Source: Acidobacteriota bacterium
GTDB taxonomy: Bacteria > Acidobacteriota > Blastocatellia > Pyrinomonadales > Pyrinomonadaceae
DNA length: 64,000 nucleotides
Reading direction: 5' to 3'
Assembly: GCA_019639235.1 (NCBI GenBank)
Contig: JAHBSG010000021.1
Coordinates: forward strand, 1-64,000
Part shown: positions 7,601 through 19,771 of the stretch, one piece after another
Position numbering within the stretch: the stretch's first letter is position 1
Layout: each line of letters starts with the position of its first letter
Notes under the pieces: generated by a model
What the model was told of the DNA's origin: nothing
Database searches by the model: none
Seen by the model: the letters and a program-made list of their open reading frames with translations, nothing else
Translations under genes and position numbers: made by a program

Positions 7601-8350
7601 ATGAAAAAGGTTCTCCTCGCGATAGGTATTCTGATCGGCTCGCTGCTTCTCTCGGTCGGAGTTTTTCTTGGCTGGGCGTTGTGGATACCGTCGCCGATGC
7701 CGGAGGCTCTTGCGGCGATGACGAGCGACGAGACGGTCGAGGTGCGCGCCGAGCCTACTCTCACCTTTCTTCCAAAAACAGCGAAGCCGAAGGCCGGTAT
7801 TGTCATCTATCCCGGAGCAAGGGTCGATCCGCGTTCCTATGCTCCGCTCGGCCGGCGGCTCGCCGAGGCCGGATATCTTGCGGCGATCCCTTCTGTGCGG
7901 CTAAATATGGCGGTCCTCGAACCGGATGCGGCGGCTAGGGTCATTGCAGAAAATCCGGATGTACCAACCTGGATCGCGGCGGGGCATTCGCTCGGCGGGA
8001 CGATGGCTGCGAGGTTCGCGGAGGCCAACCCGGGGCAGTTCCGCGGCGTTATTTTTCTTGGGTCGTATCCGTTGGCCGCCTCTCAATTAAAGGATTCGGG
8101 CCTGGCGGTGATTTCGATTTATGGAACGCTCGACGGCGTTTCCGAGCCCCGGGAGGTTCGGGCGGCCGGGCTTGTTCTGCCGGCGAACACCGTTTGGGTC
8201 GCGATCGAGGGCGGGAACCACGCTCAGTTCGGCTACTACGGCGACCAGAGCGGCGACAATGCCGCCGCGATCAACCGCGAAGAGCAGCAGCGGCAGACGG
8301 CCGAGGCGATCATTAGTTTTCTTAGTTCTCTTGAGACGGCGCAGCCTTAA
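7601..8350 (+). CDS. membrane-anchored alpha/beta hydrolase
   Basis: A 249-residue alpha/beta hydrolase with an N-terminal hydrophobic anchor (residues 5-28). The nucleophile elbow is GHSLGG. An acid residue in YGTLDG and a His in EGGNHAQFG complete a plausible Ser-Asp-His triad. The order fits the short PF12695-like hydrolases seen as esterases or unknowns. The ATG at 7601 is chosen because upstream in-frame codons run into the VIT gene and the signal anchor begins here. Its last 29 bases overlap the 3' end of the convergent pyruvate kinase gene. Confidence 0.85.
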   Translation: MKKVLLAIGILIGSLLLSVGVFLGWALWIPSPMPEALAAMTSDETVEVRAEPTLTFLPKTAKPKAGIVIYPGARVDPRSYAPLGRRLAEAGYLAAIPSVRLNMAVLEPDAAARVIAENPDVPTWIAAGHSLGGTMAARFAEANPGQFRGVIFLGSYPLAASQLKDSGLAVISIYGTLDGVSEPREVRAAGLVLPANTVWVAIEGGNHAQFGYYGDQSGDNAAAINREEQQRQTAEAIISFLSSLETAQP

Positions 8351-9800
8351 GGTCGCGATGCGGCACATCCGTTCCGATGGTCCAGACGACCACCGAGCTT
8401 GAAAGCCCGAGCCCCGAGAGCCGGCCCGCCATCATTACAAGCGTCTCGCCCGCCGAGACAACGCCCGCCTCGAGAAGCGTCCGCTCGCCGATCTTCAGCA
8501 TTTCCTGCGTTGCCCAGGGCACCTCGTGAACGAATGGCTGAACGCCCCAGATGAGTGAAAGCTGGTTATAGGCGTCCTCCGATGTCGTCAGCCCAAAGGT
8601 TTTCAAGCCGGACCGAAAACTCGAAAGGCGGCGTGCCATCAATCCCGATTCGGTATAGACGGCGATCTTCTCGGTCATCGTTTCCTTCGCAGCGTAGGCG
8701 GCGGCTTTGCAAAGTGCCTGGCTCGTCCGGCCCGAGGGCGGGAGCGAATATTTGACCGGTTTCTTTAGCTGGTCGGGCCTGATCGTCTCGGCCGCGTCGA
8801 TGATCTGGGCCATTGTCCGAACCGTCTCGACCGGATATTTTCCGGAGGCAGTCTCCGCAGAGAGCATTACGGCATCGGTGCCGTCCCAAACGGCGTTGGC
8901 GACGTCCGATGCCTCGGCACGCGTCGGGTACGGGCTGTCGATCATCGATTGCAGCATCTGTGTCGCGGTGATGACAAAACGATCATTGGCGACGGCCCGT
9001 TCGATGATGCGTTTCTGATAGACCGGAACCAGCTCTACCGAGGTCTCAACACCGAGGTCGCCGCGGGCGACCATAACGCCGTCTGTCTCCTGGATAATCT
9101 CCTCGAGGTGCTCGATGGCTTCGGCTTTTTCGATCTTGGCGACGAGCAGTGCACGGCCCATCTCCCTGGTATTTAGCTTCTTGATCAGCTCCTTCGCCTC
9201 TCGGCAATCCTCCGCACGGCGGACAAATGAAAGCGCGATGTAATCAACATTTTGCGCCATCGCCCACTCAAGATCGACGTGGTCTTTTTCGGTCATTGAG
9301 GGGATCGGCAGCTTTGTTGAGGGAAGGTTTATTCCCTTGCGTTCATTTAGTTCGCCGCCAACGACGACCGTGCAGTTAACGTCGGTTTCCGTTACCGAAT
9401 CGACCTTGAGCTTGAGTGCTCCGTCGTCGAGAAGTATCACGGATTCGGGCGTGACAACCTTTGGGAGTTCTGAGAAATTTGTGCCAACGATCTTGTTCGT
9501 GCCATCCACTTCGCGGGTCGTGATGGTGAAGGGCGAGCCCTCACTTAGCGTTACGGCCTGGCCGCCGATCAGCGAACGAGTGCGGATCTTCGGCCCGGAA
9601 AGGTCGACAAGGATCGCAAGCGGGCGGTCGATCGAGCGTGCCGCTGCCCGAGCATTGGCGATGGTCTGTTCATGCTCGCTATGGGTGCCGTGCGACATAT
9701 TGATGCGGACGGCATTGACTCCGGCTTCGAGCATCGTCCGGATGATCGGTTCGGTATTTGAAGCCGGCCCGAGCGTTGCGAGGATCTTTGCGTTTCTCAT
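8322..9800 (-). CDS. pyk: pyruvate kinase
   Basis: A 492-residue pyruvate kinase, which converts phosphoenolpyruvate and ADP to pyruvate and ATP. It has the N-terminal KILATLGPASN strand, the substrate Arg/Asn motif VNAVRINMSHG, LVDLSGPKIRT, the Mg/K site MVARGDLGVE and the TATQMLQSM motif. The B domain and C-terminal allosteric domain are present, so it looks intact. It is the last gene of a minus-strand series (TlpA, Nudix, GH15, pyk) with 76 bases to GH15. Its 3' end overlaps a plus-strand hydrolase by 29 bases. Confidence 0.97.
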   Translation of the reverse strand: MRNAKILATLGPASNTEPIIRTMLEAGVNAVRINMSHGTHSEHEQTIANARAAARSIDRPLAILVDLSGPKIRTRSLIGGQAVTLSEGSPFTITTREVDGTNKIVGTNFSELPKVVTPESVILLDDGALKLKVDSVTETDVNCTVVVGGELNERKGINLPSTKLPIPSMTEKDHVDLEWAMAQNVDYIALSFVRRAEDCREAKELIKKLNTREMGRALLVAKIEKAEAIEHLEEIIQETDGVMVARGDLGVETSVELVPVYQKRIIERAVANDRFVITATQMLQSMIDSPYPTRAEASDVANAVWDGTDAVMLSAETASGKYPVETVRTMAQIIDAAETIRPDQLKKPVKYSLPPSGRTSQALCKAAAYAAKETMTEKIAVYTESGLMARRLSSFRSGLKTFGLTTSEDAYNQLSLIWGVQPFVHEVPWATQEMLKIGERTLLEAGVVSAGETLVMMAGRLSGLGLSSSVVVWTIGTDVPHRDLKAAPSQEN

Positions 9801-15042: not shown

Positions 15043-16445
<1,403 letters not shown>

Positions 16446-16446
<1 letters not shown>

Positions 16447-16958
16447 TGGATATTCGAAAGGCTTTACTGGCGGAGCACTCGAAGCGGATGACAACGGCGA
16501 TAACGGATCATGTCGCGGATGACGCCGGCCGATTTCGTGTTCTGGCAAGGCTTTTTCTCGGTCCCGATCCGCTGATCGCTCAGCGAGCCGGTTGGCCGCT
16601 CAGCAACGCGGTTGAGCGAAATCCCGAACTCGCGACACCGTACCTATCGGTTTTTGTCGATCAGCTAACTCGAAATGATGTTCACAACGCTGTAAAGCGA
16701 AACGTTGTTCGGCTGCTGCAGTTCGTTGACATTCCTGAACGGCTGCAGGGAAAGGTCTTCTCGCATTGCCTCGACCTGATCGCCGATCCGCGAGAGCCGA
16801 TCGCGGTCAAGGCGTTTTCAATAACGGTCGCCGAACGTATCGCTCAGGCCGACCAGGCATTGGTCGATGAACTCAAGCTCGTTGCCGGGCCACTTGTAAA
16901 GAATGCGTCGCCCGGTCTGCGGGTTCGGCTGAGAAAGATGTTCCCTGAGCTGCGTTAG
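16446..16958 (+). CDS. conserved HEAT/ARM-like helical protein
   Basis: A 170-residue, all-helical protein that I recognise as similar to a conserved uncharacterised family common in Bacteroidetes. Those homologues begin near MNIRQALLEEHSK, matching VDIRKALLAEHSK here. This supports the GTG at 16446, which shares its G with the enolase stop. Later blocks (AQRAGWPLSNAVERNPEL, NAVKRNVVRLLQFVDIPE, REPIAVKAFSITVAERIA) look like successive HEAT-type helix pairs of about 35-40 residues. Function is unknown; a protein- or nucleic-acid-binding scaffold is a guess. The next gene follows after 7 bases. Confidence 0.8.
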
Positions 16959-16965
16959 AGGGCCC

Positions 16966-17382
16966 ATGACTATCTCGATCACAGAAGACATATCGAAGCT
17001 CGACATCGAGCTTATCCATCGATTTCTGGTCGAAGAGTCCTATTGGGCACGTGAGCGAACGCTTGAGCAAACCAAGACGGCGATCGAAAATTCGATGTGC
17101 TTCGGCGTTTACGATGGCGAGCGGCAGGTCGCCTTTGCCCGCGTCGTCAGCGACAAGGCCACATTCGCATACATAGGCGATGTTTTCGTGGTCGAAGGAT
17201 ATCGCGGCCGCGGCGTCAGCAAGATGCTGATGCAGTACATTGTCGAGCACCCCGAACTGCAGGGCCTTCGGCGATGGGTTCTTGCGACCCGCGATGCCCA
17301 CGGGCTTTACGAACAGTTCGAATTCGCACCGCTCCGCCATCCCGAACGCTGGATGGAGAAAACGGCCCCGAACGCTTACTAA
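16966..17382 (+). CDS. GNAT family N-acetyltransferase
   Basis: A 138-residue GNAT acetyltransferase. The acetyl-CoA pyrophosphate loop is VVEGYRGRGVSKML near residue 75, preceded by the beta-4 strand FAYIGDVFV. The N-terminal WARERTLEQTKTAIENS and the late HGLYEQFEFAPL are typical of a small subgroup annotated as YjdJ/ElaA-like acetyltransferases. Substrate unknown. It starts 7 bases after the HEAT-like gene and closes the eno transcript. Confidence 0.9.
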   Translation: MTISITEDISKLDIELIHRFLVEESYWARERTLEQTKTAIENSMCFGVYDGERQVAFARVVSDKATFAYIGDVFVVEGYRGRGVSKMLMQYIVEHPELQGLRRWVLATRDAHGLYEQFEFAPLRHPERWMEKTAPNAY

Positions 17383-17517: not shown

Positions 17518-19062
17518 ATGAACAAACCTCTCGAAAGGCCGCTTGCTCTTATCATCCTTGACGGATGGGGTTCCGCCGATGCTTCGGAAGCGAACGCCAT
17601 CGCCGCCGCACACACGCCCTATTACGACGAGATCTGTCGCCGCTATCCGGAAACACGGCTTTCTGCCGCCGGTGAGGCGGTCGGGCTCGCCGCCAACGAG
17701 CCGGGCAATGCCGAACTCGGCCATATGAACATCGGTGCCGGCCGCGTCGTTCGAACGCCTGTTTCGAACATTCGCGAGGCGGTCCGCTCGGGCGCATACA
17801 TGGAGAACGAGGTTCTCACCCGTGCCTTTGCCGAGGCAAAAGCCGCCAGACAGAAGGTCCACCTCGTCGGAATGATCAGCCAGGGCGACATTCACTCCTC
17901 GCAGGAAAATCTCTTTGCGATGATCCGAATGGCGAAGAAATTCGGGCTTGCCGATGTCTTTATTCACGGCATCTTAGATGGCCGCGATGAGCCGCCGCGA
18001 ACGTCGGACGTGCTCGTCGAAGCGCTCGAGGTCAAACTCGCCGATTTCGGCATCGGCCGGATCGCATCGCTTTGCGGCCGGTTCTACGGAATGGACAGCA
18101 GCGAGAATTGGGAGCGGACTGCCCGCGCATTTACTATGCTGGTCCATGCCGAGGGCGAGCGGGCCGCGGACCCTGTGATGGCCGTTCGGAGTTCGTTCCT
18201 TCGCGGCATCTCGGATGAGTTCATCGCCCCGATCGTCTTCGAATCCTCACCCGGCGTGCCGGTCGCGACGGTTCAAAGCGGCGACCTTGTCATCTATTTT
18301 AATCACCGGCCCGATACGGCCCGCCAACTCGTCCGGGCGCTTTCCGTGCCGGATACCGGAATGATCACAGCCGCCTCAAAGCCCGAGGTCAACAGCGTTT
18401 GCCTTGCCGAATACGACCCGAACTTCGGGCTGCCGGTCGCTTTTCCGTCGCCGGTCATTGGCGGCGTTCTCGGCTCGGTCCTCGCGGCAAATCAGATCGC
18501 GAATTTCCGCATTTCCGAGTCCGATCGCTTTCCGCACGTCTCGCGATTTCTCGACTGCGGCGTCAGCGATGCCGCCGAGTTCGAGGTCGGAGTCGAGGTG
18601 CCTTCGCTTGAGGGCTTTGACCGTGCGGCCGAGCCCGAACTTCGCAGTTTCAAGATCACCGATCGCTTCATCAAGGCCGTTCACGAAGAACCCGGGAGCG
18701 TTTTCGTTCTTAACTTTCCGGCGCCGGGATTATTGGCCGAAACCGGCAGCTTTGAACGGACGGTCGAGGCCGTTCAGTATGTCGATACCTGTCTCGGCGG
18801 TGTCATTCGCCACCTGCGCAATGCAGGCGGAGCGGCCATCGTCACCGCGACCCACGGAAACTGCGAACAAATGACGGACGAGAGCGGCGAGCCCGATCGG
18901 AATGCCACCGTGAACCCGGTACCGTTCCATCTTGTCGATGACCTGGCTCAGGGCACGGCATTGCGGCCGGACGGCACGCTCGCCGATGTCGCACCGACGC
19001 TGCTCGCGATGGCCGGGCTTTCGAGCTCACCGGAGATGACCGGCAGCGATCTTCGCGCCTGA
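17518..19062 (+). CDS. 2,3-BPG-independent phosphoglycerate mutase homologue, active site degenerate
   Basis: A 514-residue protein with the full length and layout of iPGM (GpmI). It has ILDGWG at 13-18, the NxELGHMNIGAGRVV block, GILDGRDEPP, NHRPDTARQ, ISESDRFPHVS, a THGN block and NPVPF. Most catalytic residues are replaced relative to the Geobacillus enzyme. The phosphorylated Ser62 is Ala65, Asp403 is Gly404, His407 is Glu408, Asp444 is Thr445 and His462 is Ala463. Only Asp15 and His446 of the seven metal ligands remain. Arg264 is Thr and Lys336 is Arg. The frame is intact and codon use is like that of its neighbours, so it is a conserved-looking pseudoenzyme candidate rather than a decayed gene. 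TATAAT at 17415 may be its promoter. Confidence 0.85.
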   Translation: MNKPLERPLALIILDGWGSADASEANAIAAAHTPYYDEICRRYPETRLSAAGEAVGLAANEPGNAELGHMNIGAGRVVRTPVSNIREAVRSGAYMENEVLTRAFAEAKAARQKVHLVGMISQGDIHSSQENLFAMIRMAKKFGLADVFIHGILDGRDEPPRTSDVLVEALEVKLADFGIGRIASLCGRFYGMDSSENWERTARAFTMLVHAEGERAADPVMAVRSSFLRGISDEFIAPIVFESSPGVPVATVQSGDLVIYFNHRPDTARQLVRALSVPDTGMITAASKPEVNSVCLAEYDPNFGLPVAFPSPVIGGVLGSVLAANQIANFRISESDRFPHVSRFLDCGVSDAAEFEVGVEVPSLEGFDRAAEPELRSFKITDRFIKAVHEEPGSVFVLNFPAPGLLAETGSFERTVEAVQYVDTCLGGVIRHLRNAGGAAIVTATHGNCEQMTDESGEPDRNATVNPVPFHLVDDLAQGTALRPDGTLADVAPTLLAMAGLSSSPEMTGSDLRA

Positions 19063-19156: not shown

Positions 19157-19771
19157 ATGATAGAAGGCTACTTTGACGATACGGAAGAGCGCCGCAAGCA
19201 GCGGCAGAACGGCACAGGTTGGATAGAGGTGATCGTCGGATCGATGTTCTCGGGGAAATCCGAGGAGCTGATCCGCCGGCTAAACCGGGCACGAATCGCC
19301 CGGCAGAAGGTGCAGGTCTTCAAGCCGAAGATCGACGCCCGCTATTCACGCGAAGAGATCGCCTCGCACTCGGGCCAAACGCACACCTCGCTGCCGGTGA
19401 CGACCGCCGCCGAGCTGCTTGCCGAGATCGAGCACGACACCCAGGTCGTCGGCATCGACGAAGGGCAGTTCTTTGACATGGAACTTGTCGAAGCGGTGAA
19501 CCGCCTTGCGGCGGAAGGGAAGCGGGTGATCGTCGCGGGGCTTGATCAGGACTACACCGGCAGGCCGTTCGAGCCGATGCCGCAGCTTCTCTGCGTGGCG
19601 GAGTTCATCACAAAAACGCACGCCATCTGCGTAAAGTGCGGCTCAACGGCGAATTATTCACAGCGGACGGTCGAATCCGATGCACGGGTTGAGGTCGGTG
19701 CGGCAGATAAATACGAAGCCCGCTGCCGGAAGTGCTTCGTCCCGCACGCCGACGCACCAACGGCCGGATAG
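19157..19771 (+). CDS. tdk: thymidine kinase (class II)
   Basis: A 204-residue type II thymidine kinase that phosphorylates thymidine for dTTP salvage. The Walker A is GSMFSGKS at residues 28-35, a Walker B-like [10 protein letters not shown] follows, and the lasso region has two CxxC zinc motifs (CVKCGS, CRKC). [15 protein letters not shown] is the substrate-loop motif. The N-terminus has about 20 extra charged residues before the first strand; a later start is possible, but no internal ATG precedes the P-loop. Confidence 0.93.

Follow-up and report, generated by a model that had tools for sequence, protein, structure and literature searches.

A phosphoglycerate mutase homologue without its catalytic residues is maintained as a probable pseudoenzyme in a genus of Pyrinomonadaceae

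Is a gene that keeps the whole layout of an iPGM (GpmI) but few of its catalytic residues a relic on its way out, or a protein retained for some other purpose? The question is raised by a gene at positions 17518-19062 (+ strand) of the window, by which we mean the whole 64,000-nucleotide stretch of DNA analysed here. We assign it as a degenerate iPGM orthologue of 514 aa on the basis of the TIGR01307 profile, a table of ligand residues, dN/dS and fold. The frame runs for 514 codons without an internal stop, and its codon usage is that of the neighbouring genes, as an earlier preliminary description of the locus had stated. The protein scored 459 bits against TIGR01307 (pgm_bpd_ind; cut-off 331), spanning positions 2-503 of 504, and Pfam iPGM_N (residues 85-300) and Metalloenzyme cover it end to end. 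With limits taken from the Geobacillus layout, the transferase (iPGM_N) domain corresponds to residues 80-313 (17755-18456, +). An AlphaFold model built with a 91-row alignment as input (pLDDT 90.6) matched iPGM crystal structures with Z values of 45-47 across ~500 residues, and the nearest solved structures are iPGMs; the model predicts that the iPGM fold is retained. By profiles and fold, homology along the whole length and the two-domain iPGM architecture are both met.

Active-site residues are numbered after the Geobacillus iPGM, and a 92-row alignment was also used. The phosphorylated Ser62 is replaced by Ala65 (17710-17712, +), and the metal ligands D403, H407, D444 and H462 are replaced by Gly404 (18727-18729, +), Glu408 (18739-18741, +), Thr445 (18850-18852, +) and Ala463 (18904-18906, +). 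Five of the seven metal-ligand or nucleophile positions are changed, and only Asp15 (Geobacillus D12; 17560-17562, +), which is present in 32/32 genus members, and His446 (H445; 18853-18855, +) remain. An active iPGM would have the Ser62 nucleophile, site 1 (D403, H407 and H462), site 2 (D12, D444 and H445) and the full set of eight substrate residues, and the window protein fails on every count. The Geobacillus-based list is consistent with the set from the C. elegans iPGM structure, in which site 1 consists of D426, H430 and H485 and site 2 of D37, S86, D467 and H468 (PMC5382265). Five of the eight substrate residues are retained, namely H123, R153, D154, R185 and R261 (H126, R156, D157, R188 and R264 in window numbering), and R191, R264 and K336 are altered to S194, T267 and R337 (R191S, R264T and K336R). 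The preliminary description had reported a complete iPGM layout with two of seven metal ligands left, the five replacements at Ala65, Gly404, Glu408, Thr445 and Ala463, and the change of Arg264 to Thr; all of this held in the alignment against the Geobacillus iPGM, and the changes of R191 and K336 had been overlooked. These results demonstrate that the window protein belongs to the iPGM family by sequence and fold and fails the nucleophile, metal-site and part of the substrate-site criteria. That it cannot carry out the Mn/phosphoserine mutase reaction is inferred from the loss of these residues, and its mutase activity is likewise a matter of inference without biochemical data.

The gene lies in a conserved neighbourhood. 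Enolase (15154-16446, +; Pfam Enolase_N and Enolase_C), which probably starts downstream of the 15058 start given in the list of open reading frames, is its ancestral neighbour by synteny. A GNAT acetyltransferase (16966-17382, +; Pfam) usually sits immediately 5' of gpmI in active and disabled clades, and thymidine kinase (tdk; 19157-19771, +; Pfam and synteny) follows downstream. Pyruvate kinase (8322-9800, -) is about 7.7 kb away, in keeping with the earlier statement that enolase is adjacent and pyruvate kinase 7 kb off. Active and disabled copies alike stand in the order enolase-GNAT-iPGM, in many cases with thymidine kinase next, and this shared synteny identifies the window gene as the ancestral gpmI, an orthologue and not a paralogue. 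Since the enolase linkage is ancestral and also occurs with active iPGM, it provides no evidence for a new role. No conserved operon partner was found that only the disabled clade has; GNAT adjoins gpmI in active clades too. The linkage of GNAT with gpmI is family-wide, and GNAT persists after gpmI has been deleted. An open frame at 16338-16958, between enolase and GNAT, is 40-60% identical across the genus, and its C-terminal 171 aa gave no match in a Pfam search.

Named records assign the group to Pyrinomonadaceae (Acidobacteriota), and iPGM is encoded in 101 of the 119 genomes of this taxonomic family. The tree and ligand table rest on 91 usable full-length Pyrinomonadaceae orthologues. The tree, made without the active-site columns, split into clade A (38 rows, all ligands intact) and clade B (53 rows), which holds every loss. 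At least one of the seven ligand positions was lost in 45/91 orthologues, all of them in clade B, and a loss-only count on the tree gave seven lineages that left the intact state. Ligand loss thus occurred repeatedly and in parallel, in about seven lineages within clade B. In the window genus, all 32 full-length orthologues are degenerate, which meets the pseudoenzyme criterion of clade-wide catalytic loss, and two additional fragments from the genus show the same degeneration. At position 62, 30 of these 32 have A or P; position 407 is never H and in most members is E, and position 444 is S or T throughout; position 462 is never H and varies among A, P, T, N, G and S, position 403 varies among G, A, S, T and D, and H446 is kept in 30 and is Tyr in two. 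The substrate residues H123, D154, R185 and R261 are retained in 91-100% of the genus. Among the columns lost in the genus, metal and substrate sites taken together were enriched (p = 0.013), and metal ligands alone were not significantly so (p = 0.07). Two other species, whose proteins are 93% and 89% identical to the window protein, bear the same seven letters in the same gene order; together with the degeneration of all 32 genus members, this goes far past what chance would give. Retention of the ligands in close relatives would have refuted the preliminary description; the relatives bear the same substitutions, and it was not refuted.

In some genomes the gene is gone altogether. iPGM was cleanly deleted in G059, G055, G010, G011 and G015, where GNAT and thymidine kinase remain, and a profile search of the GNAT-tdk gap in genomes without the gene revealed no iPGM remnants; in G055 and the g5 genomes a lipoprotein-like gene stands in that gap. 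These clean deletions indicate that iPGM is dispensable in some lineages. Some other absences are assembly gaps, as G051 and G077 also lack enolase and the enolase of G080 sits at the end of a contig; given these gaps, the loss count is stated as a minimum.

How, then, is the mutase step supplied? The window genome (G000) is a draft of 46 contigs in which no second iPGM was found, so that this further sequence-level route to refuting the preliminary description failed as well. A separate, intact GpmA is encoded at G000:C7:53549-54277 (NCBI equivalog, 423 bits) and bears the catalytic H, E and H. The mutase step is therefore accounted for despite the disabled iPGM, and we infer that GpmA presumably carries it out. 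An archaeal-type apgM (TIGR00306) was rejected as a substitute mutase, with no match over the cut-off in G000 or in this family. Across the family, gpmA was over the cut-off in 44 of the 45 genomes with a ligand-loss iPGM and missing in 39 of the 46 whose iPGM has all seven ligands. All clade-B genomes carry gpmA except G005, G006 and G031, the last with a gpmA fragment at a contig end; among the 38 clade-A orthologues, only one genome has gpmA. Furthermore, the sampled clade-B gpmA sequences are monophyletic (99/95 support) and separate from the sole clade-A gpmA. It is likely that gpmA entered once, at the base of clade B. An independent-pairs test of gpmA against ligand loss was not significant, with too few pairs; because a single gpmA acquisition underlies most of the correlation, the paired test had no power.

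The disabled gene is under selection. Close disabled pairs gave pairwise codon-model dN/dS values of 0.04-0.09, with likelihood ratios (LRT) against dN/dS = 1 of 173-469; the window pair G000/G065 gave 0.053, and the LRT was ~300 for the closest pairs. Active pairs ranged from 0.02 to 0.17. No internal stops occurred in the listed iPGM matches of the family genomes, and genus members down to 44% identity are still full length. The window gene meets the pseudoenzyme criterion of an open frame under purifying selection and fails that of a pseudogene (stops, frameshifts or dN/dS near 1). The iPGM/enolase distance was 1.7 in the sole clade-A pair, 2.1-2.4 in comparisons that involved ligand-complete clade-B members, and pairs from the genus gave 2.6-8.1; relative to enolase the genus iPGM evolves about 1.5 to 4 times as fast as that of clade A. 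Purifying selection on the genus iPGM is strong, yet weaker than on the active enzyme. The earlier claim that the gene is maintained and not decaying held, supported by the dN/dS of about 0.05 for the closest pairs, by open frames throughout the genus and by new near-invariant columns.

We defined signature residues as those present in at least 85% of clade B and rare in clade A, which gave 26 positions. The transferase domain holds 22 of them, more than its size would predict (p = 8e-5), and R161, D164, C186, T206, L228 and H263 are among these. D164, L228, H263 and A402 are present in 53/53 clade-B rows and absent or nearly so in all 38 of clade A. The signature is also found in the ligand-complete clade-B members G030, G034 and G003, and it therefore arose before the ligands were lost. 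Along the sequence, signature positions were not significantly closer to substrate residues (8/22 vs 70/234), and there are no 3D clustering data. In addition, constraint was gained mainly in the transferase domain (9/11 columns) and lost mainly in the phosphatase domain (28/36 columns, against 8/36 in the transferase domain; gained vs lost, p = 6e-4). The phosphatase/transferase distance ratio was 0.67 in clade A, 1.56 in the window genus and 1.55 in a pair from the independently degenerate genus g6. Among sister pairs the phosphatase domain was slower in 11/11 of clade A and faster in 12/15 of clade B (p = 5e-5); the closest pair, G000/G065, is an exception in which it was not faster. Taken together, these results demonstrate that constraint has flipped: in the disabled genus it is now stronger on the transferase domain, and the phosphatase domain evolves faster. 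The loss after gpmA acquisition, its occurrence in about seven lineages and the shift of the remaining constraint to the transferase domain all go beyond the preliminary description.

The reading we favour, at a probability of about 0.62, is a maintained pseudoenzyme whose transferase domain has a metal-independent role in sensing or scaffolding around lower glycolysis; both the role and the inactivity are inferred. The sequences themselves show that the ancestor of clade B had an intact, unrelated cofactor-dependent mutase, gpmA, whose copies form one clade. The clade-B iPGM fixed its signature, mostly in the transferase domain, while all seven metal ligands were still there, and the metal and nucleophile residues were then lost in about seven lineages, with clean deletion of the gene in some. 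In the window genus the protein has survived at full length under strong purifying selection. By inference, its remaining function would be metal-independent and located on the substrate-binding transferase domain. It would most likely bind a phosphoglycerate-like metabolite, a partner (GpmA, enolase or pyruvate kinase) or both, as a lower-glycolysis sensor or scaffold. The kept H126, D157, R188 and R264 form part of the phosphoglycerate site, and our leading guess is accordingly that the protein binds a related acid metabolite or a glycolytic partner; since R191, R264 and K336 are altered, phosphoglycerate itself is possibly not the ligand. Other points also weigh against the favoured reading. 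There are no biochemical data, and loss of activity and a different function are inferred only from residue loss and gained constraint; clean deletions show dispensability, and constraint relative to enolase is weaker than in clade A; and the association with gpmA mostly rests on a single acquisition. The preliminary description had suggested either a regulatory or structural pseudoenzyme or new chemistry; maintenance as a pseudoenzyme is supported, and the role itself is only inferred. A bolder version is possible, in which the transferase domain is a new metal-free module (a sensor of phosphorylated acids, or an activity built on R161, D164 and H263) that arose within a fully equipped enzyme, before gpmA relieved it of its catalytic duty.

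One alternative is slow decay, in which a redundant gene is leaving after the gpmA takeover and the fold persists merely for lack of time. The clean deletions in several genomes, the faster evolution of the genus iPGM than that of clade A relative to enolase and the parallel, repeated ligand losses would fit it. This reading was already disfavoured by the dN/dS of about 0.05, with neutrality strongly rejected, and we consider it unlikely: the listed matches have no internal stops, genus members only 44% identical still keep full length, columns gained constraint after the split, and the rates differ between the domains. Artefact is all but excluded. A sequencing or assembly error or a contaminant contig might be suspected in a draft of 46 contigs, but the two other species, 93% and 89% identical and known from independent MAGs, share both the substitutions and the gene order. 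An annotation or frame error was rejected, as full-length frames are conserved.

Could the protein still be an enzyme acting on another substrate, with one metal on Asp15 and His446 (perhaps with Glu408/Thr445) or with new chemistry on the transferase face? D15 is invariant, H446 is kept in 30/32 and E stands at 407 in most of the genus; R161, D164 and H263, which are polar and newly invariant, are close to substrate residues along the chain; and G002, G003 and G006 keep all metals and have lost substrate arginines, which suggests a changed substrate midway. This reading nevertheless appears doubtful, because 30/32 members have Ala or Pro in place of the Ser nucleophile, site-1 ligands are free to vary, H446 is Tyr in two members and the phosphatase domain is the faster half. 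A pure scaffold, serving only as the partner of another protein such as GpmA or enolase and binding no ligand, would find support in the plant complex of PGAM, enolase and pyruvate kinase with its inactive-PGAM rescue (PMC7481185), and in the 22/26 signature positions in the transferase domain. We regard it as improbable too, since a protein that binds nothing at its substrate face would not be expected to keep H123, D154, R185 and R261 in 91-100% of the genus.

The window protein resembles bacterial iPGMs (GpmI; TIGR01307; 1ejj, 1o98 and 4nwj) in full-length homology, two-domain fold and enolase-side locus, and differs from them in having lost the Ser nucleophile along with four more metal ligands and in the altered R191, R264 and K336. 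Phosphopentomutase, archaeal apgM and the apgM-type homoserine kinase BT2402 belong to the same metalloenzyme superfamily; unlike the window protein, BT2402 retains its zinc-site residues (PMC9765024). In plants, PGAM forms a complex with enolase and pyruvate kinase, and an inactive PGAM rescues in complementation (PMC7481185), a case like the present one in that an iPGM-type protein has a catalysis-independent role, which for the window protein is inferred. The plant protein was made from an active enzyme by site-directed mutation, whereas the inferred inactive state here is natural and fixed. In some bacteria gpmA displaces gpmI in mutase function by non-orthologous gene displacement (PMC2964296). 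That survey dealt with whether the genes are present, absent or pseudogenes; in the present case the displaced enzyme persists in disabled form under selection. Pseudoenzymes are already a known kind, and in the open-access literature searched we found no earlier account of an iPGM-derived example or of the present clade.

The retained disabled iPGM has probably acquired a second job, although its function is inferred. In a whole genus of uncultured Acidobacteriota and in several independent side branches, a core glycolytic enzyme has been replaced by an unrelated one and the old protein kept in a disabled state. The same survey (PMC2964296) left open whether the presence of both PGM types reflects early displacement or a retained ancestral state. 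The family includes intact iPGM alone, intact iPGM with gpmA, partial loss, lost catalysis with the protein kept, and clean deletion, and this graded series answers the question for one lineage. The parts of iPGM needed for catalysis can be separated from those kept for other reasons, which makes a catalysis-independent role of a glycolytic enzyme directly testable. There is also a warning for annotation: the NCBI equivalog model calls phosphoglycerate mutase above its cut-off despite the absent catalytic residues.

Several further observations concern relatives of the window genome. The gpmA matches of G119-G125, G127 and G128 lack profile positions 123-145, which resembles the short monomeric dPGM type (PMC2964296). 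The GNAT-thymidine kinase gap of L184 (G055), L181 (G011), L182 (G010) and L183 (G015) holds a lipoprotein-like gene of 516-571 aa. The orthologues of genus g3, at L036 (G003), L042 (G002) and L105 (G006), keep the seven metal ligands and have lost R153, R191 and R264; they may possibly represent a metal-dependent enzyme with a changed substrate, an intermediate stage. Finally, in another family of the class, L150 (G149:C56:10800-13985) encodes an iPGM with D12S and H445N directly downstream of gpmA, which we infer from sequence alone to be a separate, partial early case of the same process.
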